Positions 667-61,400 of a DNA stretch of 64,000 nt are shown piece by piece. Every line of letters begins with the position of its first letter. The stretch's first letter is position 1. The notes beneath the pieces are model-generated. The model searched no databases. It was not told the origin of the DNA and saw nothing but the letters and a program-made list of their open reading frames with translations. The position numbers were made by a program, and so were the translations under genes. The stretch is from Tigriopus japonicus (lineage: Eukaryota; Arthropoda; Copepoda; Harpacticoida; Harpacticidae): NCBI GenBank assembly GCA_010645155.1, contig CM021317.1, positions 735,330 through 799,329 on the forward strand. Direction: 5' to 3'.

Positions 667-3600
667 TTACGGTTTAAGTTGAAAAGTCCTGACAGTTGTG
701 AAAAGGAGCTCTCGGTCGTCCCTTCGTAGTTTCAAGTCGTACTCCTTCCAAGGAAGCATTTCCATATCCAAATCTTTGACGTAGTGCTGAGAATATTCAT
801 TAGGCTTGTAGTACAACTTGTTTTTCCATTGGATGAAATGCCCTCTTCCTCTTTCAGCAGGTAGATCATACTTGGGGGCATGAGACCAGGTTTGGCTGCT
901 CAGATCAAAGATATAGGCGGTTTTGATGGGGTCCTCAATAGTGGATCGTTGGTAACCCCCTAGGCACAAAACTTGGGGTTCGTTTGGAGGAATGGTCAGA
1001 AGAGTGCAAGCTGGGTACACAATCTTCATTGGGTAGGCCGCGACCATCTGCCACGAAGAACTCCCAACAGATAATACCTCAACTTCGTTAAAAACATCAC
1101 TATTGCAATGAGGATGCAACGGATTGATTTGAAATTATTTGAAATCTAGCATAAAAGAACGGATCAGTGAAACTTGGGTTCATCCAAAGTTTTTCAAAAC
1201 AGGATAATTGACATTTTTTGGACTCCTATATTTTTTATAATTGTCGTGGAAATTTTGCTACCGGCACAAGGAATGCGATTCCCTGATAGTGAATCAATCT
1301 AAATTTTAATGTATACCATTCACAACTTTCTCTTCATCTAAAATCTCTGGATGAAGCCAAGTCTTCCTTAGAGAGGTGAAAGCGATAAAGAAGTTTAACA
1401 ATTTTTTACCACAATTTTCAGTTGAAGCCAATATAATTTTAATGAAAATTGCTTGAGGTTTTGGTAGGTTTCAAATCAATCCGTTCCTGCCGGATCGGCC
1501 ACCAATGGCCATAATAGATGTCGAGTTGAGCGTGACTACAGTTAGTGAAGTTCGAGGAACATTAAGTGGAGGTCCTTTGATCCACGTTTTGGTGGATGGT
1601 TCCAACACGTCAATCGGAAACTGTTTCCCTCTGGTCTGAACAACTACCACCGTGTCACCAAGAAGGCCCATGCCATGATAAACTATGTTCTCGAAATATG
1701 AATGAGGCACGTATTCGGGCGTATCTAGGAAATACAATGACATATATAAGACAAGAAAAGATGTTTGGAAAGAGGTTGCCAGTTAAGTGGGCCTTACTAA
1801 AATCCCAAAAGTAGCACCAATTGCCAGCCTCGCAAGCCAAGAATCCGTTCTGGTATTCAATTTTCAAGGAAGGGTTCACAAACGGAAAATTGAAAGGAAA
1901 AGTCAGAGAGGCTAGGGATTGGGTATCCCCAGAAATGGGATTCATTTCGCCGTATCTTACATTGGCCATGTATAGTTCTAAAACAGATCCAATCGAAACT
2001 TGAGGACGAACGTAGTAAATCTGACAGAGAATGTGTTTACCTGAAATGGGTTCGAGATTGACAACGTGCTCGCTTTTCAAAAAGACTTGTTTGCCGTGGG
2101 TCTTGTTCCCATTCGTTGGTTGTCCCAAGCAAGCCAAAGCAGTGAAATTGAAGCTCACCAATTGACACATTTGGGTGGCTTTATCAATTTCAATGCCGTG
2201 GCATTTTTCACCATCGATTTCTATCAAACAATTGGCCATGCACTTCTCTGCTCTAAAATGAGAAATCTTATATTGGAGAGAGGGTCTACAATCAACTGTG
2301 AGATTCCTTTCTCATTTAAATGATTTTAACTCCCAACAAGAAGTTTAAAACAAGTCAAAATGGAAATGCTTGATTCGGTTGAGGACAAAATTTCCCTAAA
2401 TTGGAAAATAATAGTGGGAAATAGGAACTCAAGACACTTACAGTTTTGTCGTGTAAAAGTAAAAGGCCATGATTTCATAACCCAGTCCAAGCTAACCTAA
2501 GTGAATTTTGATCATGGTATTAGTTATTTCCGGCATCGAATTTATGGCCAGGGATGCACTTCGCAGTCAAATGCACTTTTTTACAGGTTTAACCGTTTTT
2601 TGCTTTATTTGCACTTTTTGCGGTGTTTACACTTTTTTCACTTTCCGTGATTTTTCGCCAGAAATCTTAGAACGTCGAGTGACCCTCTTTCCATCCATTT
2701 ATGAATGGAAGTAAGTCAATAGCACATAGGACTTGTTTCAATGAGGGGTGTAAGCATGTCCACGTACAATGTACTCAAAGGAAACAGAGACCGACAAAAT
2801 CTCTGTCCCCTAGATCAGGTTACAGGTTAGCCTCCAATCCCCAACCCATCCCCCAAACATTTCATCCTTTTACCATTCCCCCTCCCCGTTCTCGTCGTCC
2901 TCCTCCTCCCAATTCCTTGTCCCATTTTCCTTCCCTCATCCCAAAACCTATTTCTATTTCCACCCTTCTCCCAAATATCCATAACCCTGCCCCTTCTTCC
3001 ACTTTCTCCCATGGGCAACCAAGGTCTTACTCTAGTGTGACGGCCCCCTCCCCTCCTCCACAATCCCTTCCTGTAGAGCAAAATTTTGTTAGTAAGCAGG
3101 ATTTTTTAAGGTTAGACAGGAAGGTCCAAGAACTGATAGACTTGGTCCATCGGAAGACCTTAAGCCCATAAAAGGGCTTTACTTGAACGTGCTTTGCTGA
3201 TTTCCAAAAAAGATAGCACAAAGGTCAGAGTACTGGAGGAGCTAGCCATTGATAGAGAAGTCTCCTTCATTTCTATTAAAGAGACTTGGCTTCTTTTTTT
3301 TTTGTTTGTTTGGGGGGGGGGCGGATTTTTAATACCGCTACAAGGAATGGGATTCCCTGTAAAGAGAGTTAATGTTTAATTTAGTTTATAGAATTACCGT
3401 TTATATGAAATTTGATCTACCAATGAGTTACTGTTGGCAGATCTGTACAACCCTTGAATAGTGGGTTGGTCAGGAATAGTATTCAAAATTTGTCCAATCC
3501 TGCCTTAAATGCTGCTAGAGGATCAGCTCCTTCAGCTCCTAAGAAGTAGCAATGGCTAATTTTAGGCTAGTTCGTTGTGATAGAGTACGGCCGGACAATC

Positions 3601-11086: not shown

Positions 11087-14000
11087 TTACGGTTTAAGTT
11101 GAAAAGTCCTGACAGTTGTGAAAAGGAGCTCTCGGTCGTCCCTTCGTAGTTTCAAGTCGTACTCCTTCCACGGAAACATTTCCATATCCAAATCTTTGAC
11201 GTAGTGCTGAGAATATTCATTAGGCTTGTAGTACAACTTGTTTTTCCATTGGATGAAATGCCCTCTTCCTCTTTCAGCAGGTAGATCATACTTGGGGGCA
11301 GGAGACCAGGTTTGGCTGCTCAGATCAAAGATATAGGCGGTTTTGATGGGGTCCTCAATAGTGGCTCGTTGGTAACCCCCTAGGCACAAAACTTGGGGTT
11401 CGTTTGGAGGAATGGTCAGAAGAGTGCAAGCTGGGTACACAATCTTCATTGGGTAGGCCGCGACCATCTGCCACGAAGAACTCCCAACAGATAATACCTC
11501 AACTTCGTTCAAAACATCACTGTTGCAATGAGGATGCAACGGATTGATTTGAAATTACTTGAAATCTAGCATAAAAGAACGGATCAGTGAAACTTGGGTT
11601 CATCCAAATTTTTTCATAACAGGATAATTGACATTTTTTGGACTCCTATTTTTTATAATTGTCGTGGAAATTTTGCTACCGGCACAAGGAATGCGATTCC
11701 CTGATAGTGAATGAATCTAAATTTTAATGTATACCATTCACAACTATCTCTTCATCTAAAATCTCTGGACGAAGCCAAGTCTTCCTTAGAGAGGTGAAAG
11801 CGATAAAGAAGTTTAACATTTTTTACCACAATTTTCAGTTGAAGCCAATATAATTTTAATGAAAACTGCTTGAGGTTTTGGTAGGTTTCAAATCAATCCG
11901 TTCCTGCCGGATCGGCCACCAATGGCCATAATAGATGTCGAGTTGAGCGTGACTACAGTTAGTGAAGTTCGAGGAACATTAAGTGGAGGTCCTTTGATCC
12001 ACGTTTTGGTGGATGGTTCCAACACGTCAATCGGAAACTGGTTCCCTCGGGTCTGAACAACTACCACCGTGTCACCAAGAAGGCCCATGCCATGATAAAC
12101 TATGTTCTCGAAATATGAATGAGGCACGTATTCGGGCGTATCTAGGAAAAACAATGACATATATAAGACAATGATAGATATTTGGAAAGAAGTTGCCACT
12201 TAGGTGGGCCTTACTAAAATCCCAAAAGTAGCACCAATTGCCAGCCTCGCAAGCCAAGAATCCGTTCTGGTATTCAATTTTCAAGGAAGGGTTCACAAAC
12301 GGAAAATTGAAAGGAAAAGTCAGAGAGGCTAGGGATTGGGTATCCCCAGAAATGGGATCCATTTCGCCGTATCTTACATTGGCCATGTATAGTTCTAAAA
12401 CAGATCCAATCGAAACTTGAGGGCGAACGTAGTAAATCTGACAGAGAATGTGTTTACCTGAAATGGGTTCGAGATTGACAACGTGCTCGCTTTTCAAAAA
12501 GACTTGTTTGCCGTGGGTCTTGTTCCCATTCGTTGGTTGTCCCAAGCAAGCCAAAGCAGTGAAATTGAAGCTCACCAATTGACACATTTGGGTGGCTTTA
12601 TCAATTTCAATGCCGTGGCATTTTTCACCATCGATTTCTATCAAACAATTGGTCATGCACTTCTCTGCTCTAAAATGAGAAATCTTATATTGGAGAGAGG
12701 GTCTACAAACAACAGTGAGATTCCTTTCTCATTTAAATGATTTTAACCACCAACAAGAAGTTGATTGAGCTTCTTGAGGCTCATGCGCAACTATCATATT
12801 TTCTTTGAAGTTAAGTTGTTGTTATCAAAATGGAAATGTTTGAATATGTTGAGGACAAAACTTCCCTAAATTGGAAAATAATAGTGGGAAATAGGAACTC
12901 GAGACACTTACAGTTTTGTCGTGTAAAAGTAAAAGGCCATGATTTCATAACCCAGTCTAAGCTAACATAAGTGAATTTTGATCATGGTATTAGTTATTTC
13001 CGGCATCGAATTTATGGCCAGGGATGCACTTCGCAGGCAAATGGACTTTTATACAGGTTTACCCGTTTTTTGCTTTATTTGCACTTTTTTCGTTTTTTAC
13101 ACTTTTTTCACGTTCCGTGATTTTTCGCCAAAAATCTAAGAACGTCGAGTGACCCTCTTTCTTGTAGCTCTTCTTCATTTCTATAAGTTCTCCAATGTAC
13201 GCTTGTTAATCATAGACACCAGAAATGGACTTGAATGGGCGTAAAGCATACAAATGTTCAATAACTTTTTCGTAGTATTTGCAATGATTTAGGGTGCCAT
13301 CAGAAAACGCTCAAAAGTTTCAAAATACTCGTACAATTTCAATCAAAATCCCCTTTTGATGCAGCAAAGAATGACCAAATGAAGTAAGACAAAATAACGC
13401 AAATTTCCTAGTTCTGCAATGCCGACGCGTGTGACTAGTGGGTGTGGAAACACCAACGAAAAAGAAGGTATCCTACATACACCACGTCGTACTTGTGAGT
13501 ATTCAAGAATGCATTGAGGAGAAAAATGTTTTATTTGGACCTTATTTCAAAAACTACAACAATTCAGCAAAAAGCTGAATTTACTTTGAAGGCCAATTTC
13601 ACATTTTTTCACTTTTGTCATAAGAAGCTGTTTGGCAGTGGGGGTAGCAACAAAATTGTTAGGGACAACTTCCTGACCAGAATCAAGAGGATGTCGCCAT
13701 TCTGGTTCGCCAAGGGCATCAGGGTGGGTGCAAATGAGTACTTAGAGGTCATGAAAAAGACAGTAAAGGCTTGTGCTGATGTCACATATCCACACAACAA
13801 CTATTGTCTATTAATGACTACAAATGAGGATGAGGGCAAGGGCAAAGTTTTTTCCCCTTCTTTTGCTTTCGCATTATTTACTACTTCCAAGAAGCACTGG
13901 AATCATGGAGTGGGAGGCCACCAATGAGAATAATGATTTCCAGTAAGAACAATTCAATTACGTTCTTCTGCAAATGAGACCTTGCATATGTTGACAAGAA

Positions 14001-14984: not shown

Positions 14985-16836
14985 AACCCCCTCCACTTTT
15001 TGCATTGACGAGTGTTCATGACTTTGTCGTGGATCCAGCTCATGGTGGTTCAGATGGCGAGACTATTATAAAACTTTGTAAGGCTGCTCACGGGAGCTAT
15101 TCCCTCAGTCTCAGCCAAATCTACCGGATTTTAAGGGATGTTAATGCTAAAAAAGACCCCTCAACAAGCGCAACCAAAGTGCCCAATGCGGTTCCAGGAC
15201 AACTCGACCCAGAGGACAACTCGACCCAGGACAACTCGACCCACCGGACAACTCGACCCACCGGACAACTCGACCCAGCGGACAACTCGACCCAGGACAA
15301 GTCGACCCAGGACAAGTCGACCCACCGGACAACTCGACCCACCGGACAACTCGACCCACCATGTAAGACCCCAATAACCAAATGCATCAGTCAACACGAC
15401 GAGGTTCAAGATCTACAACAGGGTCGATCTTACACACTAATTCATGTCTCTTTTCTGGTCGCCAATCAACTTCTTTGTCTCCTCATTAAGTGACCAGAAT
15501 TACTAATGGAAGAGGGTACGACTTTTCCGAAGCGAGATTATTGTGGTGCTTTGACAAAGTCGTTACTGAACGACCGTGTTCACAACACAAGTTTTAAATG
15601 ATGCTTTCTTGATGAGAGGTCTTGACTTAAGGTCGGTTGTTGAGGTAGTTGGAAAAAATACAGAAAATCGTAAGACATGAAAGCCACCGCTCAGGCGTTC
15701 AGTTGTGGGTTTTTTTAAATCGAATTCCATTTAAGAAAATGATTTTGTTTTGATAAGATTAATTCAACAATCATTTAAGGATGTCGTTTGCTAAATTTTA
15801 GCAGGATACGCTGCTCCATTAACGAGAAACAACGTTTCTGTACATTAGGACAGTTTCCAAATTTGCTACATTGGGAATGCATACGGGCGGAAACGAGTGA
15901 AAAATTGACCTCGGTGTTAAAATGCCATTGAGAAAAGAATGAACGATGCTCTTAAAGAGAATCAATCAGCAATTTAGCTACCTGGCCTCTCAAGGGTTTC
16001 ATATCTTTTTCATTTTGCCACTTTTTCATTAGGTACTCGATGAAATACGAAAATTATTTACATATAAATAAAATTGGGTATTTTCGAACGGTTAAGTTAT
16101 GTATTGGGTCGAGTTGTCCGGTGGGTCGAGTTGTCCGGTGGGTCGAGTTGTCCGGTGGGTCGAGTTGTCCGTTGGGTCGAGTTGTCCGGTGGGTCGAGTT
16201 GTCCTGGGTCGAGTTGTCCGCTGGGTCGAGTTGTCCTGTCACCCCCAATGCACCAAGAGGATCGCGGACTTCATTGAGGCCGCGAAGGAAAATGGGAAGG
16301 AAGAGAGGCATGTGAGCATGAACAAGATTTTCATGGAGTTTGATGCCTCAGAAACAACTCTCCGAAGAGTGCTTGGTGATGACCTTGGCCTCGTAAAATG
16401 GGCTACAACGTGGGTCCCCCAGCAACTCACAGATGATCACAACAAGGAGTGCGCGAGATGTACAAAGGTGTTCTTTAATGCCAAATTCCACGAAGGTCAG
16501 GCCTTTCTTTATTCCATTGTGGCCATGAACTAAACGAATGTGACCTTCTATACCCCTGAGACAAAAACAATCCAACAAACAATGGATTCCAAGAGGTCCA
16601 AAAGGCCCGAGTAGGGTTAGGTTCAGGAGAGTCGGAAAAACAAATTGCTATTGCCTGGTTCAACAACATGGGACTTATCAACCAGCATTATGTCCTGGCC
16701 GGAACCAAGATTAATGCAGTCTACTTATGCAATATCTTGACCGCTTTCTTAAAAAAATTCAAGGCCTAAAGGCCAACCATGCCCAAAAACGAATGCTTTT
16801 TGCACATGGACAATGGACCGTGTAGAGCTTATTTAC
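14985..16836 (+). pseudogene. Mariner-like transposase, interrupted and decayed
   Basis: The N-terminal part (VHDFVVDPAHGG ... IYRILRD) runs to 15181 and continues at 16252 with TKRIADFIEAAKENGKEE. It then reads on through WVPQQLTDDH, a catalytic-region relic (IVAMN, where the family has MDET), YTPETK and a last part near MDNGP around 16795. Frameshifts and stops lie after 16533, so it is dead. The 15190-16243 insertion splits it. Confidence 0.75.
15190..16243. mobile_element. Non-autonomous TIR element with subterminal minisatellites
   Basis: 1,054 bp. The left end GGTTCCAGGACAACTCGACCC and the complement of the right end (GGTGACAGGACAACTCG) form a TIR. It is flanked by an 8-bp duplication CCCAATGC (15182-15189 and 16244-16251). 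Inside each end lies a tandem array of 15-17-bp units (GGACAACTCGACCCACC) in opposite orientation: about 15195-15360 and 16100-16240. The middle is unique and non-coding. The empty site is at 6080-6090. The TIR and duplication do not fit the usual hAT end, so the superfamily is unassigned. Confidence 0.85.
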
Positions 16837-29210: not shown

Positions 29211-29810
29211 NNNNNNNNNNNNNNNNNNNNNNNNNNNNNNNNNNNNNNNNNNNNNNNNNNNNNNNNNNNNNNNNNNNNNNNNNNNNNNNNNNNNNNNNNN
29301 NNNNNNNNNNNNNNNNNNNNNNNNNNNNNNNNNNNNNNNNNNNNNNNNNNNNNNNNNNNNNNNNNNNNNNNNNNNNNNNNNNNNNNNNNNNNNNNNNNNN
29401 NNNNNNNNNNNNNNNNNNNNNNNNNNNNNNNNNNNNNNNNNNNNNNNNNNNNNNNNNNNNNNNNNNNNNNNNNNNNNNNNNNNNNNNNNNNNNNNNNNNN
29501 NNNNNNNNNNNNNNNNNNNNNNNNNNNNNNNNNNNNNNNNNNNNNNNNNNNNNNNNNNNNNNNNNNNNNNNNNNNNNNNNNNNNNNNNNNNNNNNNNNNN
29601 NNNNNNNNNNNNNNNNNNNNNNNNNNNNNNNNNNNNNNNNNNNNNNNNNNNNNNNNNNNNNNNNNNNNNNNNNNNNNNNNNNNNNNNNNNNNNNNNNNNN
29701 NNNNNNNNNNNNNNNNNNNNNNNNNNNNNNNNNNNNNNNNNNNNNNNNNNNNNNNNNNNNNNNNNNNNNNNNNNNNNNNNNNNNNNNNNNNNNNNNNNNN
29801 NNNNNNNNNN
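29211..29810. other. Assembly gap (600 N)
   Basis: A run of N of round length, placed directly after the second copy of a long repeat. Reading frames drawn through it are meaningless. Confidence 0.99.
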
Positions 29811-29990: not shown

Positions 29991-32900
29991 CTATGGTTTG
30001 AGCTGAAAGGTCCTGACAGTTGTGAAAAGGAGCTCTCGGTCGTCGCTTCGTAGGTTAAAATCGTACATTTTCCAATGACGTTTTTCCTCATCCAGATCTT
30101 TTACGTAGTGCTGCGCATGTTTATTTGGTTTGTAGTACAGCTTGTTTTTCCATTGAATAAAATGACCTCTTCCCATTTCAGCGGGTAGATCATATTCGGG
30201 TGCATGAGACCACTTTTGGATGTTCAGATCGAAGATATAAGCCTCCTTGATGGGATTATCAAAAGAGGATTTTTGGTAACCCCCAACACACAACACTTGA
30301 GGGTCGTTCGGAGGAATGGTCAATAAGGTGCAAGCGGGACACACGACAGTCTGTGGATAATCCTGGACTGTGTGCCAAGAGGAACTCCCAACGGAGAGAA
30401 TCTCGACCGCGTTAAAAACGTTCCTGCTCAAATGATGCAAAGGATTAATCTGAAACTTCTTCAATCCTAGAGCTCAAGTTTGAAAGTGTGAACAGAACAG
30501 AGCAAGGGGTTTTGTTGATTCACTTGTCCGTTTCGCAAAAGGCAAAAAAGTAGTTTATCTGAATTCTAAAATATTTTCTTGATAACATGCTACGGCATAG
30601 GCCGGTCTTCATCCAAACTATAAAGCAATATAAATCATGATATTGTACAATAAAGCTCTCATACGGATGAAATATATCATACATACATACATACAAGTTT
30701 GCTTTATGGGACTCAAATGCTATCCCCTCCAAAAAGAGTCCCGTTTATCCGCCTTGGGATAAACGGAACGGATTTTCCTTCAAGTAGTAAAAGGGATAAA
30801 CGGGATTTTACTACTTTTCAAGCTTTTTTCCTACTTTTCAAGCATTTTTTTCTACTCTTCAAGCATTTTTTCCTACCTTACAAGCATTTCTTCCTTATTT
30901 CTATAATTATTCACAAATTTCCCTAACACTATATTTCCTACAAAATCTCACTTTTTTCAATTAAGTCCCATACAAAAATTATTTCCATTAGTGCAATGAA
31001 AACTCCTAGGTTTTTAGCTTTAATTTGTTTGTGTTTCCGAAGTTAAAACGCAGCTTCGCAGCTACAATGTGACTGATAAGGCTGTCCGCTCTGTAGGAAT
31101 ATTACAGGGTTAGTTGGTGGACTATCTCATCCATAAAGCGTCCCGTTTATTGGGATTAACGGGATTTTCCTCCAGTCGGTTGTTCAGGTTGTTTGGAAGT
31201 ATAGTATAAGCATATCTAGAAGCATATAAGAAACACAAAAGAAGCATATGAGACGAAATAGAAGTAACCATGATCGATCAAGTTTCGCTACTTAAGGTGC
31301 CTTTTCCATTCACAACTTATGTAGTAAAACTTGATCGAGCATGGCTATTTCTGCTTCACCTCATATGCTTCTTTTGTGTTTCTTATATGCTTCTAGATAT
31401 GCTTATACTATACTTCCAAACTACCTCAACAACCGACCTTATGTTTCCAGTCAATATGGAGCTTTGCTAAAGTAAATTTCAGTTACAAACATGGTTAGGG
31501 CTAAGGTGCACCATCTGAAATATCCCATTTCATACTTGATACCTCATTTTGGGTCCGCTCTTCATGTACCCAAACATCTACATAAAAGGTTCAGCCAATC
31601 TAATGTTGATCAGAACCGTTTAGAATTTGAAAGTGGTTTTCAGATTAATCCATTCCTGCCAGATCGGCCTCCAATGGCCATAATCGATGTCGAGTTGAGC
31701 GTGACCAAACTCGGCGTACTTCGGGGAAAATTGAGAGGAGGCCCTTTTACCCACGTTTTGTTGGAAGGTTCCAATACGTCCATAGGAAAATTCTGCCCTT
31801 GAGAATGCACTATCACCACCGTGTCAGCAAAAAGGCCAATACCGTAATGGACTTTGTTCTCCAAATATGAATGCGGCACATACTCAGATGTATCTTGGAA
31901 AAAGAATTAGTAAAGTAAGCAGCATATACGAGGAGAATGTCAGTTATAACGAGAATGACGCTGTAGTGTAGAAACCTTGAGGTTTTCAACGATGTTTGCT
32001 TTTACATTTTTTCAACATAAATTCCATTTAGTTCGGTGCATTTTTTACATCTCTCTAATGTATGTAAAAGACCATCTTATGACAACACTGTAAGGAGCCC
32101 CTGCACGGCTAATTTAAGCTCATTCTCATCGTCAAATGTCTTCCCAGACAATTATTTTTTCAATGATGGAAAAGACCAGAAGTCATTTGATGCCAAATCA
32201 GGTGAATAAGGGGGATGTCCAAGGAACTTGATACTTTTCTTCTCACAGAAAGCCGTTGTTTCCTGGCTAGTGTGAAGATGGACATTGTCATGATGGTTTT
32301 TTGGCCTTTTCCTCCAAAAATGGCGTGTGGAGGCTTTCCTCCCTCTAAAATCCTTTGCTTACATATGATTATGGTTTCTGGTGTGTACAATTGACCCCCC
32401 TTCATCACAAGTGAATATTCGTTTGAGGAATGTTAATTAATCCTTCTTGAAAATGATGCTTGATGAAGTCTCTTGAAAACTCCAGATGAGCCATCTTGTG
32501 TTCTTCTGTGAACAATAAAGGGACCCATCTGGCACTCAGCTTGGACATGTGCAGATTTTCAACCAGGATTCAAAACAGTTTTTTTCTGAGAGGTCAGATG
32601 AAAAGGCAATATTAGCAACACTCAGACGAGCATCTTTCTTTTAAAGTTCCTCACAACTTCCATATTTTCATGAGTTCAGAATATATGTTTTTGATGCTTC
32701 ATTTGCATGGAATGAAACGATTCTCTTCCATCTCGGATTCACTTGTGCCAAGCAAAAACACGTCTTTTGGACATTACCTTGTCCCCATAAGCATTCATGA
32801 GAAAATTGAAGGTTTTTTTGGCAGTTTTCCTTGCTTTTGCAAATGCAAGAATGGTAGCGCGTTGATGTTACCTTTTTGTGATTGTTCAATTTTGGCAGGG

Positions 32901-41499: not shown

Positions 41500-42451
41500 N
41501 NNNNNNNNNNNNNNNNNNNNNNNNNNNNNNNNNNNNNNNNNNNNNNNNNNNNNNNNNNNNNNNNNNNNNNNNNNNNNNNNNNNNNNNNNNNNNNNNNNNN
41601 NNNNNNNNNNNNNNNNNNNNNNNNNNNNNNNNNNNNNNNNNNNNNNNNNNNNNNNNNNNNNNNNNNNNNNNNNNNNNNNNNNNNNNNNNNNNNNNNNNNN
41701 NNNNNNNNNNNNNNNNNNNNNNNNNNNNNNNNNNNNNNNNNNNNNNNNNNNNNNNNNNNNNNNNNNNNNNNNNNNNNNNNNNNNNNNNNNNNNNNNNNNN
41801 NNNNNNNNNNNNNNNNNNNNNNNNNNNNNNNNNNNNNNNNNNNNNNNNNNNNNNNNNNNNNNNNNNNNNNNNNNNNNNNNNNNNNNNNNNNNNNNNNNNN
41901 NNNNNNNNNNNNNNNNNNNNNNNNNNNNNNNNNNNNNNNNNNNNNNNNNNNNNNNNNNNNNNNNNNNNNNNNNNNNNNNNNNNNNNNNNNNNNNNNNNNN
42001 NNNNNNNNNNNNNNNNNNNNNNNNNNNNNNNNNNNNNNNNNNNNNNNNNNNNNNNNNNNNNNNNNNNNNNNNNNNNNNNNNNNNNNNNNNNNNNNNNNNN
42101 NNNNNNNNNNNNNNNNNNNNNNNNNNNNNNNNNNNNNNNNNNNNNNNNNNNNNNNNNNNNNNNNNNNNNNNNNNNNNNNNNNNNNNNNNNNNNNNNNNNN
42201 NNNNNNNNNNNNNNNNNNNNNNNNNNNNNNNNNNNNNNNNNNNNNNNNNNNNNNNNNNNNNNNNNNNNNNNNNNNNNNNNNNNNNNNNNNNNNNNNNNNN
42301 NNNNNNNNNNNNNNNNNNNNNNNNNNNNNNNNNNNNNNNNNNNNNNNNNNNNNNNNNNNNNNNNNNNNNNNNNNNNNNNNNNNNNNNNNNNNNNNNNNNN
42401 NNNNNNNNNNNNNNNNNNNNNNNNNNNNNNNNNNNNNNNNNNNNNNNNNNN
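41500..42451. other. Assembly gap (952 N)
   Basis: Run of N inside a repetitive element. Confidence 0.99.
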
Positions 42452-51362: not shown

Positions 51363-54260
51363 TGTGGATAAATGTATGGCCACGTGTATGATGGAAGTGG
51401 ACGAGAAAATTTGCCACGGAATCGAAATGGATTTATTAAAACAAACATGTCAACACCTCACGTTCAATTTCACTGCCGTCGCCTGTTTGGGCAGTACCTT
51501 TTCCAAAAACAAGACCGGGAATGAGATTTATATTAAAGAAAAATACATTGTTAATCAACCAATGGAACAAGGTTTGTTTTCAGAAAACCATTTAATGTCT
51601 TTTCCATGAAGTAAAAAATACGTCGGATTGTTAGTAGTGGCACATAGCTTTACAGGGTTGGCGGCTCAAGTGTAGACTTTTTAAGACCATCATAAACATT
51701 GTAGTTTGCGATCGATTTTTTTTTTAAATTTACAGTGTAGCAATCCTTAAGTATTAAGGAATGGAAGTTCTTTTATTCCTGTTGAACCCCTTTGGCATGA
51801 ATGAGATGTGACATCGATGAAATAGTTGGGACAGTTGGCACAGAGCCTTGCATTTGTCTCTCAAGGGGAGAAGGGCAGATTTTTGGGTTAGATAAGACTC
51901 TTTGGTATCTCAGTATGTCTTAATTTTAAGGATGGGCAAAAAAGAAGTTTAAGAGCCTCAATTAGACCTCAAAAGGACACGTGTTATTTTCTAAAAAAAA
52001 ACAAAATCCACACTTGGACTGTCGACCCTGTAGGTGACATCCCTTTGCATTGAATGATTGAGTGACAGAAGGTGTGATTCTAGTTTAAAAGTGAAGCACT
52101 CTTTTCTCTCAGTTTTGAAGAATGCGGGCAAGAATTTCAATCAACCCAATCAAATCTCATTCTTTCTCATGAGAAAGAATTCTATTCTTTGAACATAAAC
52201 ATTATGGCAGTACGTGGATATTTTGACACGATCAAATTAATTTAGGATGCAATTTAAGGATATTTTTTTTTGGAAATATTGTTACAACAGCAAGTGTCAC
52301 TTTTATGTTAGTGTTCTCTTCATGCAGGGTTGTACCTGATTTTAAAACGTTGTCAAAAAGCAATGAATGGCGGAATCAAGTTTTACTTGATCCCGGAAAA
52401 CGGGCGTTAGATAAGGAACACCTTATACCAAAAACAACTAAAATATTACTGTACACCAAGAATTAAGAGCTTGTGAAGTCTTGACCATTCATCAACATTT
52501 TAGGCAAAGGAAAGACATCTTTAAAACTGTGGACAAACGTTGAGAATTCCACACTTTCCAATTTGGTCGATAAAATACCAAATCTCATTTTCATGGATAG
52601 AAAGGCTAGTTGGGACCAATTGGATGTTAAGTCATTCAAATCTATTCCTACATAATGAAAATATTTTGGTCCAAAACTACGACAAAACTTTCATGTTAGC
52701 GCGTAATTTGGAAATCGTTAGATAAGGACAAGCAGCAAAATGAAATTAAAGCGGATAGTGGCGTAAAGGAATCAGCTGATTTTCATGCAGGACAAAATAA
52801 CAAAGAACCCCAATATTTGAAGCTTTCTTTAAGGTTTTCTTGCTTCTGTATCTTTTTCTAGAACTCTATTTTGCTAGCCTTGAGGATGGTCAAATGTACC
52901 CAATTTCAGGACTGAATCAATCTTTGGTCGATCTGACAATGCCCAAATCGTTGCTCAACCGTAATGACATCAGTGTGGAATATCGGAATGGAGTTATTTC
53001 ATGCCAAGTAAACACTCTCAAGTGTTTCCACTGGAGCTTTGGTAAGAGCAATTTTTTTTTTAAATTTTGCTACTGTGATAATATCATGGAAAAGTAACGA
53101 AAAGGAAACTCTTCTTATCATTGGAAGTTTCCTGGGCCAATATTTCAATAAAAGGTCTTTACGAAGGCACTTATATGAGTAACATAAAAATATGGGAAAA
53201 TAACTCAACTAATTATTTTTTTAAATCTCCAACCATGAAATTGATAGATTACGAGGGAGGGGCTCACATGTTTCTTTTCCCCATCTTGTTTTTAAGAGGC
53301 TGATGCGTATGAACCATTTCCATCTCTCAAACGACCTCACAGCACGAAAGAAGAATTGGCAGTTTTTGGCGCGAAGCTCATCGTTGTCGGCAATACCCGG
53401 TCTTACGATGCTTTGGAATCTGTTCATATCTTTGACCCAGCAAGTAACGAATGGATATTTGGTCCCGATCTCACAGAGGCACGGATTGGGGTGACCATTG
53501 TTACGCTTAATTCAACATCAGTCATGGCTGTAGCTGGCCAAATTAACAGGGACGAATCGATCTCGTTTATCAGAGTTGAGGTACCTTTGTGACACAATGA
53601 GAGCCTAAAGGTTACTGCAAGTTTAATGAACAAACGCACAAACAACTTACCGAAACCGGTGCGAAACACCTTGGACTGCTAAGCTATCTTTTTTTAACCT
53701 AACGTTTGCCCTGACAAAGATTTTGAAATTCTTACTTGATTAGTTTTAGTACCTCCTTGTTCGTAGTTGAAATGAGACCGATTCGCCCCTGCTTTAAATG
53801 TCGCAGCGCTAAGTTCTCTTCGAAAGTAGAGATGCTTTGTGTTGGCGATCAAAATTGGACCATCTTGGCCGACTATCCGGAACCAGTGGCATCTCCTGCT
53901 TGTGGAACATTGGCCTTTCCCAATGGCACCAAGGGGGTACTTTGCATTGGAGGCAAAAGTATTGCAGCAAGCAGCAGGGGAATTCCATTGGCTTACTTTT
54001 TTAACTTGGATACTCAGGAATGGAAGCAAGTCCCCGAATTTGATGCAGCAGAGGGGAAAACCGGTGGCCGTATTGTTCAGTGGAACGATGAGATATTCTA
54101 CAAACCTGAGATAAAGTTCAATACCTATCCTGATTACAACATTTATGTCAAGAACCTTACGAAGACCGAGCAACCTTGGCAAACCCACTCGCACGTTTTT
54201 ACTGCTTCGGCGAAAAAAATCGTCCCACTCAAGATCAGGATCTTCAAATTTAAGCCTTGA
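51363..54260 (+). CDS. PAN-kelch secreted protein, paralog D
   Basis: Plus strand. Exons found: 51363-51571 (PAN: DKCMATCMMEV, CHGIEM, QTCQHL), 52862-53041 (180 nt, as in the other paralogs: YFASLEDGQMYPISG), 53297-about 53558 (kelch: LIVVGNTRSYDA, EWIFGPDLTEAR, VMAVAGQ) and about 53780-54260 (kelch: VLCIGGKS, YFFNLDTQEWKQVPEF, stop after FKFKP). They sum to 1,132 nt, in phase with a phase-2 first exon that I could not locate. Introns 2 and 3 are GT-AG. The last intron lacks usable GT-AG ends and has hairpin borders (53551-53567 and 53771-53787) with a sequence unlike A-C. Its strand and distance mark it as the oldest split in the cluster. Probably secreted; ligand unknown. Confidence 0.7.
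51653..52032. mobile_element. Short TIR element, GGTCGGCGGTCC family, copy 2
   Basis: The ends CAGGGTTGGCGGCTCAAGTG and CACTTGGACTGTCGACCCTG are imperfect inverted repeats, about 380 bp apart as at 18836-19215. It lies in the intron between the PAN and spacer exons of gene D. Confidence 0.65.
53551..53787 (+). other. Hairpin-bounded non-GT/AG intron, paralog D
   Basis: The arms GACGAATCGATCTCGTT (53551-53567) and AATGAGACCGATTCGCC (53771-53787) pair at 14 of 17 positions, plus one G-U. Removing about 53559-53779 joins D-E-S to I-R-P, which lines up without gaps with N-G-L/I-N-P of the other paralogs. CGAT occurs at both borders, so the exact cut is ambiguous over four bases. The joined exons contain the palindrome CGAATCGATTCG. 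Confidence 0.6.
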
Positions 54261-55481: not shown

Positions 55482-58400
55482 TTACACTTTCATTTCCCAA
55501 ATAACGAGATAGGAATCAAAATTGTTGACCTGTGCCAATGCGGCGGTGCGTTGTTTCTCAACGGAGGCACGCCGCCAATTAATGTATCCACGCCCGCCCA
55601 TCAGAGTCGTGACAGTGCGTGGTGCGTCTAGTTTCTTGCGAGCCTTTGAAACGCTTATCGGTTGCACCTCTTGTGAACCTGCAGCTGGGCTGCTTTGCGT
55701 TGCTTTGAGGGCAGGCTTGTGCGGTGTGGCCGGCAAGGAATTGGAGTTAGGCTGACCCTCATGCGAGGATGGCCCGCTCGATGGGTGACTTGATCCTGAC
55801 AATGGGCTTGAGAGCGATGGGGCCAAGGGCTCATGAGGAGGCAATGAGTGAACAGAGGCTGTCCCTTGTGACTTGACAGAAGCATTGCGGCTCACATTAG
55901 GTGAGGGCCGTTCACTCCCTGCCTCACTTGAACTTGTGGTCTGCGTTGATCCACGGCTACCCACACTCCAAGAGGACATATCAAGACTGCGGGGTCGGCT
56001 GGTTTTCATTCTGACCCGGCGATCCAAAGTGGACACGCGGTAAGGAATGGTGGACAATTCAGGGTCGGACTTTCTAAGTTCTTCACCTTGCCGCGAGATC
56101 TCTCCTGAATCGCAGTCGTAATCTCGAACATTCAAGAGTTCTCCATATAGACCAAATACATCATAGTCCATTGAGGACATGTCGGTGTGTTCATGGGTCA
56201 TGGAGAATCCTCGTGGCAAGGTCTTGCTTGCTCGTCTAGATGCCACATTTTGATCGCGATGCTCACGGGAGGACTTGCGTCGCATCACCAATGGACTGCT
56301 GTTGCGGATCCGAAGTTTCTGATGCTCATTTTCCCCTGGCTGCGATTGGATGGACAAGCCTCCTTCTGAATACTGTTTAAGCAAGTGTTTCTTATGCCCT
56401 CCTACATCTTCATGAGACTCTAGGATCGTTGGGACCAAACTCGAGCATCCGCTGCTACAGTCTTCATTGCTCTCCAATTTGAGCTCGTGCTCTGATTCTT
56501 CTTGAATGGCCGAATGAGCATTGTTTTGCATTTGCGTGGTCACATCGGTCACCACCTTAGGCTGAACATTCAAAAAGAAGGTGACTGGTCCAAAGTGAGC
56601 ATGATAACTGATATTAGCCCGTCCGCTTATTATGGGGACTCCTTCTAATCTGGGCAAAGGAACTGTCAAGGCAATACCGACATTGGTTCCAACCCATAAG
56701 AGACCCCGGGACGCCATCAAGGCTGTGACATGGATACATCTTGCTGGTTGGCTAACATCTCGAGCAGCCAAAACTCTTGACACATTTGAGGCAATGTTGA
56801 TATCTTGCAAATGTCGGAACGTTTCCGTATGATACAAGCAAATTGTGGCTGAGTTCTTCAGCGCGACCCACAATCCAACTCCAGATTGGGCCATTTGATG
56901 TACACCCCCAATAGCCAGATTAGTCGTGGAGGAAGCAGGTGAAGTGGGAACAGGTTGACTGTCATGTTGAGCCTTGACCACAAAGTTCTTCAATTGCTCG
57001 TTGGTGTGGCCATCAATTACCCAAACGCGCTTGTCACAAGCGGCATAAATGCCGTTGGTGATGGGGAGAAGACAGGACACCGGATCACACCCAAGTATTA
57101 TCATGGATGGATGTGCCAGGTCCCAAGCGCCAGTGCAATAATCTCGTCTAAAGACCGCCATACTCCCTGAGGCCAAACCCACCCAAACTGCCTCACAGTG
57201 GTATTGAATACACATTACTTCAGCAGGAAGAGAGGCTCGTCCAATTTCATGACCACGCTCTGGATCACTGGCCGAATAGAGGATAATTCTGAAACAAGCA
57301 ACAATTCTAGTTAAAAAGAAAGCTCAGAAGAGGGACAAGCAATAATTTTGAAGAGTAACACTTACTTCTGAGTGTTCACCCCTACCCAAACGAGATCAGA
57401 TCTAAGAGGATCGTCCGGAGATGAGTTGGCAACACCATTAGTCAATCCAGGGACATACTGAATGGTTCGCGCATGGAATTGCTCCAAGGAGATGGTGCCG
57501 AGCTCCTTCAGGCCGGTATTTTGATTAGGAACACTGAAGATCCTCAAGTGACTTGAGTGACCATCAGTGGCATTGGTCCAAACATACCTGCAAATAGCAA
57601 GCCACAAAGTTTCCAATCTGGTTCGTGGTTAGATTATTAGGATCAAACTTACGTGTGAGGTCTTAAGGTTCTTGTTGGAGTTTGCACCATGAGTGAATAG
57701 GAACATCCACAATTGACTTCTGTTTGGTGTTTGGAATGGTACACTTGGAACGATTTGACGTAGAGTGGCATTTTGGTGGAGATGCTCCTCTCTTGTTCCA
57801 ACACATCCCAACCAGGGGAGTTATTTGGGTCCAACGCTAATTGGGCCAATCGGAGTTCTACAAAAGGACAAGGCCAAATGTCAGCTCAACCCTTGACACG
57901 TGAACCTTACAGGGTTAGGCAAAATTAGTGAAACTTTAGATTCAAGACCATGATTAAGGCCCTTGGTGTGAGCCACAATTTTAAATGAAAGGTTTAAAAC
58001 CGTAACAGGATACAGAAATATTGTCATGGAACCCTGGACAAGGTGGCCAAAAGAGGGCGAGGACTCCCACGTTGGTTAAGACCACTACCTGTAAGATTAC
58101 ATGAAATCCGGCTTGATCCATGAACAAGTTGGCTAAAGACTACAATTTGTCCCCATTACTTGTGGTTAGATCTTGAAAAGGCTAATAAGGGTAACAAGGA
58201 CCACTTTCGGTCATAGTTGAAGCAACATGGGATGATAACCAAGAGGAGGAATAGGTGCGTGCAAGTTGTAACATTATCAAGACCTTCAGGGCGGTGGTTT
58301 GGCTCAGAGGGGTACATGACAAATAATATTCCAATATGTTATAGTATGTTGTATGCGAAGCAACTTCTTAGAACAATCCTTTCCTATTGACCTTGTTGGT

Positions 58401-61400
58401 AAAGAGTTATTTCATAATATCCATGTTTCACTAATTCTGCCTAACCCTGTATACCTCGGGCACTTACCAACAGTCCACTCCTTCTTCACATTGGGGTCTC
58501 TGGTCTGGAACGTGTAGCTTTCTGGTTTGTCTTTTGAGTTGCGTCCTTTGATAACCAATTGCAAGCAACAAGCGTCCATGAAGGACATTTCCTCATCTTT
58601 TTGTCGGATTGCGCGTTGGATTTCAGAGAGGATTTGACTAGTCACAGAGGTAGTAAGGCCCTCATAGGAGGTCCTCATTGTTCCAATCAGTGAAGAGATT
58701 CGAGACACCACATCAAAATCATGCATAAGATCTGCCATGTCTTGCGCCAGGTTCTCAGCTTTGCCTCCTGTCTCGCCAGCAGGCGAGCCGCCCAGATCAA
58801 CTGGGTTGGAGGATCGGCCAAGACTAGCTCGTTTACCAATGGCCGAAAGTGTTCCACTGGCAGTGGGTGCCAAAAGTCGCGCCAAAGTCCCGCCCGCAGT
58901 GCCATCTATAAACGCGAAAGACAAAATGTAAGGCGCTCGATTGAAAGTACCACATAAATTTGCAGTGAACTTACCAACGATCTCAACGTCGCTCACAGAC
59001 ACTGCCCACTTAAGAGACAATCTTTCATTGGCCGAGGAGGTATGGTTGAATTCAGCTTCTGAGCTCCGCCCATTTACTGTCACACATAGCAACAGGTCGT
59101 TTAAAAGCAGAAGACGGCGCTGTTTAGATCGAGTGACCAAGCCTGAAGCGTTGAACTCCAATTGGGTCATGTCATCTTCCTTCAAAAGGAATCGATTGCT
59201 TCCCTCTCCGCCTGACAAAGGTTTGGACGACAGCCTTCCACTTATGTTGCTGATCTTGTCACGGAAGGCCGCGTATTGCTCAGCCTCTCGTTTGCGCTCA
59301 TTCAGCATCTCGGCAAGCGATTCCACCGTTGTCATGGCAAGTTGCAAAGCCATACGATCTGGATGTCCGGGAGGTGTTTCTTTCAAGAGATCTTGGAGCA
59401 AAAGGATGAACTGTGGGAACCGTTGGACCGGTTTGACCATGAGGCCAAAGAAAGATACGCGATCATGAGCTGTGATCTGTTTGACCTTTAGGAAATCCGC
59501 CAGGGCACTCTTCCGTTTCGACTCCTGTTTGGCACAATCCATGGCCACCGTAAAGTTGTTGATGAAATCCGAGTAGATTTCCAGGACCACAGCTTTGGAG
59601 AACGAGGCCACGAAAACATCGCCAATTTTCTCATCAGTGTCCCAATTTTTGATGGCTTCGGAGAGCGCGATCCGAAACAAAAGATGACACTGAAGGATTT
59701 CAGGTACCCGATGAAACAGGGTTTGAACTTTTTGTTGGCTTAAAATCGGTGGATGGGAATCCTCGAGCGGTTTCTTGTAATCCTGCAAAACATCAGAAGG
59801 CATTCATCGATAACGTTTCAATCTCAAATGTGAAGAAACAAATTCAAAAAGATCTTGGAGGAAAGGAAGGAAAACAAAACGGAACAGAACAATAACAATA
59901 GGCGATTTGTTTGCGTTCAGGATCCCAATCAGGCATGTCCAAACAAGCGGGATCCCAATCAAGCGTATAATCTTGGATTGTCTGCTTAGGAATGCCAATA
60001 AACCTGTCGTCGGGAATCAGACTCACATTGACTAGTCGTTGGAGGGTGGCCACATAATTGTTCTCACTATGTACCAACGAGGCCACAATGTGTCGCCGTT
60101 TCTGTTGCTCTGGAGTGAGGTTGGGTGGAGTGGGTTGGAGAATGGGCGGTAGGGATTTCCTTGCACCCGCATTGGGTGGCATGGAGCCGCCCAACATTTG
60201 CTCTTCCTCTTCTGCTAAACGCGGCATTGATATCTTTGGCGAATCATTCGGACCCGAACCTGAAACAACACAATAACAATGTGTCAAAAATATTTATGGG
60301 ATGCTCGAAGCAAGCAGAGCCTGCTTCTCTTTGGTCGTCACTCCTCGGAACGTGTGCACTCCTTGGCGACACAGCGACAGCTGATTCAGTGCAAAAATGT
60401 GGCTAGCCTTGAACCCCAGATTTTTCTTTTTCCCCCACTTCTCTTCCACTTTGCTTGCTCAAAATTGTTCTTCTTCATTGCCTTCAAGTAGACAGTGTGA
60501 CTCAAGTTGGTAACTCACTCAGACTTGTCCCTCATGCTCCTGACTGAACTATTTGGTTTGGGACAGGCAATACCGATAAACTCCTACCCACACATTGCAT
60601 CCGTCGTTGTTATCAAACTTTAAGGAGGGGTTCACGAAAACTCCCTGACGTTGCTACACATGACATTTCATGCATTAGGTTCAATATTACCATTGTCTAA
60701 CAAAACACACATTCACTGATTTGTCACTAATCTTCAGTTGCTCACCAAAGTACGTACATCAACTCGCGCTCAAAGGGTTCACATCAGAAGCAAGTTCAAG
60801 TTTCTTGTCACTTGTCACATCCTGCATTTTTTCCTGTTTTTAAACATTTGACGGATAAAAAACAACAACTCACTTGATAAATTGGACTTTCGGAGTGAAA
60901 ACAACCGAGAGAGTCGGCCCTCGCCCAATCCATCCAAATTCGTGTTGGACGCATTGGGAGAGCTGTTGCTGGTCATCGATCCGCCGCTGTTGGTACTGTC
61001 CTTGGAGTTGTCCAGACTTCTGCGGATCCCCCAGGTCTTGGAATCTCTGAATTTGTCACGAAGCAAGGACTTCGTCTTCGTAATGGTGGATGGATTTGAT
61101 TTTGATTCATCTTGGCTCCTGCAACAACAAACATACCAACTTGGGTTAGATCACAGTTTAAGTATTCCCAACGTTGGCCTCGTCTCACTTTTTGGGTTCA
61201 GGCCAAATGGCCTTGGTTTGGCCTTTACTACAGGGCTCTGAGCATTGTCCGTTAACATCAAAAGTATCGGGCATGTTCCCAGAGACTTTGGTGATAACCA
61301 CATTTTTGGCGCTTTCCTCGTCCAATGGTTCCTTTGCTAGAACGTCACTTAAATCGAGGCTGCCTGAAGATAACACACTACCCCCATTGCTACCGCTAAA

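Follow-up and report, generated by a model that had tools for sequence, protein, structure and literature searches.

Four related kelch genes (A, B, C and D), clustered in the genome of the copepod Tigriopus japonicus, share an intron whose two ends form a stem that covaries among them. On the evidence of the sequence this is probably (at odds of about two to one, a probability near 0.67) a phase-2 intron that was gained once, is spliced from CAG|GA or CAG|GG to AG as in the GA/GG-AG class of copepod introns, and carries a stem kept by selection that aids the U2 spliceosome.

Four kelch genes with one intron in common

The window, that is, the whole stretch of 64,000 nucleotides analysed (C3:735330-799329), belongs to an assembly of 195 Mb. 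Gene B is a recent duplicate of A, and the downstream exons of B and D are 97% and 34% identical to that of A. Two of the downstream exons are placed as follows:

667..1099, minus strand: gene A downstream kelch exon with stop codon (Kelch_6 and Kelch_1 over the cut-off; A-C dN 0.156, dS 0.872)
53807..54260, plus strand: gene D downstream kelch-like exon with stop codon (by sequence likeness to the paralogs)

The Pfam scan covered A and C, and the Kelch families that exceeded the cut-off in the downstream exon of A fell just below it in that of C. The amino end of the gene A product had no Pfam match; judged by eye, the amino end resembles a PAN/apple domain. Protein searches returned one match for A (61%) and three for D (56-65%), all in Tigriopus californicus, and none for the downstream exon of A.

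In each of the four genes, the two exons have an open frame that runs to a similar carboxyl end. Between A and C, dN/dS was about 0.2 on both sides of the intron (upstream exon, dN 0.154 and dS 0.746; downstream values as listed), indicating purifying selection on both exons; synonymous sites were saturated between A and D. These values were obtained by the Nei-Gojobori method on the join proposed in the preliminary description, with the eight junction codons left out, and include a few downstream codons that would be intronic on the reading favoured here. Given the purifying selection between A and C and the open frame to a similar end in A-D, translation of the downstream exon is very probable, the simplest case being a single protein with the upstream exon. 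Two runs of N in the window (29211-29810 and 41500-42451) produce spurious long open frames.

Reading through the intron in A-C meets a TGA stop at once, as had been described. Retention of the intron, with A-D encoding truncated proteins or being decaying genes broken by an old inverted-repeat transposon, would fit the T. californicus relatives, in which P0001 (A-like) continues beyond the site with 41 other residues before its end, P0003 (D-like) likewise with 30, and P0004 (D-like) leaves the common reading a few residues before the site. Only one of the four, P0002 (D-like), continues into the downstream kelch part, with a loop of 32 residues; when it was back-translated as a DNA-free test for the stem, 3 of 16 pairs were impossible, and 16% of random segments match as well. 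Retention is nevertheless a poor account, since all four genes keep an intact downstream exon, on which purifying selection acts between A and C, and the stem covaries. Moreover, Robertson attributes partial automatic gene models in Eurytemora to GA/GG donors (Robertson 2017, PMC5714493).

A covarying stem at the intron ends

The arms lie exactly where the preliminary description had placed them, and its central claim, a covarying hairpin that bounds an intron without GT in four paralogs, holds. The arms are as follows:

1469..1485, minus strand: gene A 5′ arm, AACGGATTGATTTGAAA (pairing, shuffle tests, covariation)
1118..1134, minus strand: gene A 3′ arm, TTTCAAATCAATCCGTT, 18 nt before the predicted intron end (pairing, shuffle tests, covariation)
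11886..11902, minus strand: gene B 5′ arm (located by its sequence)
11538..11554, minus strand: gene B 3′ arm (located by its sequence)
31638..31654, minus strand: gene C 5′ arm, AATGGATTAATCTGAAA (pairing, shuffle tests, covariation)
30439..30455, minus strand: gene C 3′ arm, TTTCAGATTAATCCTTT, 15 nt before the predicted intron end (pairing, shuffle tests, covariation)
53547..53568, plus strand: gene D 5′ arm, 22 columns, CAGGGACGAATCGATCTCGTTT, its first three bases exonic on the favoured reading (shuffle test, fold, covariation)
53770..53791, plus strand: gene D 3′ arm, 22 columns, AAATGAGACCGATTCGCCCCTG (shuffle test, fold, covariation)

When the best stem within 40 nt of the originally proposed cut was compared with those in shuffled flanks, one as good arose in 0 of 500 shuffles for A, 0 of 500 for B, 3 of 500 for C and 0 of 3000 for D. 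The pairing reported for D was confirmed and its extent was corrected, as the stem is longer than claimed; of its 22 columns, 19 are Watson-Crick pairs, one is a G-U and two are mismatched. In its best fold, D keeps most of the stem at an energy no better than that of shuffles (z -0.74); for A the corresponding z is -2.30.

Covariation was assessed in an alignment of A, C and D over 17 pairs, B being left out as its arms are identical to those of A. Paired cells made up 94.1% and two-sided changes with pairing kept were found at 8 of the 17 pairs, values that none of 500 shuffles reached in either case, and sliding the partner register lowered pairing to 18.8-56.9%. The number of extra pair types was ordinary (equalled in 89 of 500 shuffles). 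Over 22 columns, 83.3% of cells were paired and 8 pairs were two-sided, with 1 of 500 shuffles reaching each value; the four outer columns are fully paired in D only. Just three distinct sequences underlie the covariation and represent few independent events, though A and D differ at about half of the stem columns. The covariation indicates that the stem is under selection, and the selection would presumably be for splicing.

Predicted splice junctions in the four genes

A search that demanded one left stem column for all four genes plus an AG acceptor gave an in-frame join throughout, from one stem column to one aligned AG. The predicted introns are the following:

1100..1486, minus strand: gene A, CAG|GAACGG ... 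TTGCAATAG|T, phase 2, 387 nt (in-frame join common to A-D; loop of 9 residues)
11520..11903, minus strand: gene B, GA-AG, 384 nt (in-frame join common to A-D)
30424..31655, minus strand: gene C, CAG|GAATGG ... TTGAGCAG|G, 1232 nt (in-frame join common to A-D)
53550..53806, plus strand: gene D, CAG|GGACGA ... TGTCGCAG|C, 257 nt (in-frame join common to A-D; matched in the stem scan at the looser threshold only)

The acceptors (CAATAG in A, CAACAG in B, GAGCAG in C and TCGCAG in D) occupy the same aligned place, 15-19 nt past the stem end and in frame with CAG|G; the earlier statement that no usable AG acceptor exists is not confirmed. That of D lies one codon further from VEVL. Further in-frame AGs are present in C (one, three bases upstream) and in D (three more, further upstream). 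At the shared site the acceptor codon varies (Ser AGT, Arg AGG, Ser AGC) while its AG is constant, which is what a role of AG as a splice signal predicts.

Nine left columns qualify, spaced three bases apart from -10 to +14, and x=-1 is the only one at which the exon ends in CAG and the intron starts with G in all four genes. At this junction the intron starts with GA in A, B and C and with GG in D, and its third position is A in all four; compared with CAG|GTAAGT, every donor matches at -3 to +1, +3 and +5 and mismatches at +2, +4 and +6. Counted from GG to VEVL, the resulting kelch loops have 9, 9 and 10 residues, and those of the uninterrupted paralogs have 7-15 (26 of 26, drawn from 29 matches other than A-D, of which three were without a locus). 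As several of the nine columns yield loops of normal length, loop length argues for the acceptor alone. The choice of donor base is based instead on CAG|G, on A at +3 and G at +5 and on the likeness to the GA/GG donors of Eurytemora affinis; the choice is partly circular. The junction had been derived before the comparison with the Eurytemora GA/GG class was made. In gene C, the direct repeat GCAGGAA stands at both junctions (31653-31659 and 30421-30427) and makes the exact cut ambiguous there; a short duplication may have accompanied the gain of the intron in this gene.

On the favoured reading the stem, of 17 pairs in A, 16 in C and 20 in D, would be part of the intron, GA-AG in A-C and GG-AG in D, save for the outer three bases in D. 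Being almost wholly intronic, it lends no support to the earlier picture of a stem that spans the exon ends and leaves a palindromic exon junction. That picture entails a cut in the middle of the stem, an exon junction of AACGGATTGATCAATCCGTT and a loop of 21-22 residues, and would call for structure-guided splicing independent of the spliceosome. The strong preservation of the stem by covariation speaks for such a cut, as do joins that stay in frame when A-C are cut at column 10 and D at column 8 and, slightly, the 4 synonymous and 0 nonsynonymous changes in the 8 arm codons between A and C. The same joins demand different stem columns in A-C and D; the loops of 22, 21 and 22 residues fall outside the range of all 26 paralogs, and the common AG and CAG|G are left unexplained. 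We therefore regard a mid-stem cut as improbable. Its agent could possibly be SOS splicing, in which AKAP17A, CAAP1 and RTCB reportedly remove transposons from mRNA through pairing of inverted repeats (a 2025 preprint). The genome does encode a CAAP1 domain; no relevant literature on SOS splicing was found, nor did a word search of a review bring up any.

Conventional dinucleotides were also considered. In-frame GT/GC-AG joins around the site do exist in A, B and C, and each loses conserved kelch residues, gives a loop of 2 or of more than 15 residues or is not common to A and C. In D, unlike A-C, several in-frame GT-AG options keep the motif. Splicing of D by GT-AG (e.g., at CTC|GTTTAT or GAG|GTACCT), with GA-AG confined to A-C, is an alternative, and CTC|GTTTAT joined to the acceptor of the favoured reading leaves a loop of 15 residues. 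These donors, however, are situated within the stem or past it, have no counterpart in A-C and lead to loops of 15 or 18 residues, and we consider this alternative unlikely.

Editing of the duplex, in which A-to-I changes would create a GU-like donor from AU and an AG-like acceptor from AA, could draw on the AU that A, C and D have in their left arms and on the right arm, which has AG in C and D where A has AA. It would need two edits in A, and a search by hand found no in-frame solution common to A-C and D, making editing extremely improbable. Introns of the U12 type start with ATATCCTT or GTATCCTT, and the donors of A-D (GAACGG, GAATGG and GGACGA) have neither form. Conserved minor introns are described as absent in T. 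californicus and E. affinis in passages of PMC10639083.

Mechanism, origin and known systems

Under the favoured explanation, the phase-2 intron would have been gained a single time, in the ancestor of the four clustered kelch genes, and would be removed from CAG|GA in A, B and C or CAG|GG in D to the ordinary AG. The 5′ end of the intron from +2 onward would pair with the stretch that ends 15-19 nt before its 3′ end, bringing a weak 5′ site beside the 3′ site and enabling the U2 spliceosome to use a donor without U at +2. What the sequence establishes is the stem, its covariation, the constraint on both exons, the common in-frame AG acceptor and the normal loop. We infer from these features that splicing takes place, at the bases given, with the spliceosome as its agent and the stem as its aid. 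A difficulty for this explanation is that a stem starting at +2 covers the U1 site and should hinder U1 pairing; recognition by U1 before the second arm is transcribed would be one way round the masked donor. Eight U1 matches were found in the genome; six exceed the cut-off, and all of these have the standard 5′ end, with no U1 variant among them. A more far-reaching and less likely reading would make the stem rather than the 5′ dinucleotide the recognition signal. Copepods would then have a structure-guided splicing system, spliceosomal or SOS-like, for introns with pairing ends, and GA/GG donors would tolerate the loss of U at +2, with pairing in place of the U1 contact; the GA/GG introns of Eurytemora would be expected to have terminal stems as well.

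GA/GG donors look rare in the T. japonicus genome. Among 26 neighbouring exon pairs of five myosin genes used as a control, a GT solution existed for 13, a good GC solution without GT for 1, only poor solutions for 1 and none for 11; with this crude method, AG|GRA donors were absent from the best listed solutions of the 15 solved pairs, the other 11 being unsolved. A scan of 283,395 bases for AG|GVA, a stem and an AG with coding sequence on both sides recovered A, B and C with 2 other sites at the stricter threshold and A-D with 14 others at the looser one. By eye the other sites look like chance, leaving A-D as the only convincing ones in those bases. Some false matches of the stem scan, at about 15200-16300, come from a GACAACTCGACCCA-type unit that is repeated there both inverted and in tandem. 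Genome-wide, the left-arm pattern occurs at 8 places, three of them in A-C, and no exact 11-base partner lies within about 1.5 kb at the five others.

The terminal inverted repeats that are present are in fact near-terminal, stopping 15-19 nt short of the 3′ end, and no convincing target-site duplication was seen by eye in the flanks of C and D. Intron A has 14 matches in the genome, of which only those in A and B are longer than 78 bases. A transposon origin was considered and rejected, the matches of intron A elsewhere covering only 55-78 bases of an internal repeat.

Two observations on repeat ends in the window may be recorded here. On the minus strand at about 57858-58467, a RhoGEF/PH gene followed by WD40 exons has a GT-AG intron (identified by eye) with an inverted repeat of 26 bp, ACAGGGTTAGGCAGAATTAGTGAAAC and its complement, that is near-perfect (one mismatch) and lies about 17 nt from the donor and 51 nt from the acceptor. 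With its CAGGG ends it looks like a miniature element of the hAT type, which would make up most of the intron. The stem of D likewise starts with CAGGG and ends with CCCCTG (53547-53568 and 53770-53791), like hAT ends. If the GA/GG donors of Eurytemora sat in hAT-like ends, their obligate exonic AG would be explained, which is speculation.

Several known systems share traits with the A-D intron. Introners, as treated in parts of PMC9860276, are likewise gained introns in aquatic hosts including copepods, and 72 of 177 assessable families have terminal inverted repeats; they are multicopy, whereas intron A, the one searched, is matched over its full length in A and B only. Strong pairing of the ends together with non-GT borders, as seen here, is described in passages on introns of hemistasiid diplonemids (PMC12621601) and euglenids (PMC4770533), and for diplonemids folding has been proposed to hold both splice sites close (PMC12621601). 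Those hosts are protists in which such introns are genome-wide and variable in their borders; the present case concerns an animal, with a regular exonic CAG and intronic AG. Fritillaria borealis, which the preliminary description had named as a parallel, is an animal with non-GT introns, but its most frequent borders are AG/AC and AG/AT, unlike those of A-D, in the available portion of PMC13326754, and the terms "inverted repeats" and "hairpin" both gave no result in a word search of that main text.

The closest parallel is another copepod, Eurytemora affinis, in which GA and GG donors occur at about 12% of introns (Robertson 2017, PMC5714493). Those introns always have AG before the donor and almost always A at +3, with ordinary acceptors, recent gain and a standard U1 (PMC5714493). 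The A-D intron agrees in its GA/GG start, exonic AG, A at +3, ordinary AG, lineage-specific gain and broken gene models. It differs in its terminal stem and covariation, which do not figure in the main text of PMC5714493, and in the apparent rarity of such donors in T. japonicus; for ten receptor genes, Robertson found zero GA/GG donors in the homologs from T. californicus and T. kingsejongensis (PMC5714493). Excerpts of Frey and Pucker (2020, PMC7072748) describe GA-AG introns of Eurytemora and Oikopleura dioica with an upstream AG and a downstream A, as in A-C, and suggest a U1 variant, in one of five potential U1 genes, whereas the six considered here are standard. A word search of the available text of the Eurytemora genome paper (PMC11706791) found no mention of introns, and the sections consulted of the literature on copepod GA-AG introns contained no link between GA/GG donors and terminal stems.

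New, relative to these systems, is the strong covariation around GA/GG donors, outside Eurytemora. The favoured reading would extend the GA/GG intron class from Eurytemora to Tigriopus, and gene finders for copepods should then permit AG|GRA donors. With U1 being standard in Eurytemora (Robertson 2017, PMC5714493), the covarying stem offers a concrete and testable answer to how GA/GG donors may be recognized in these animals.
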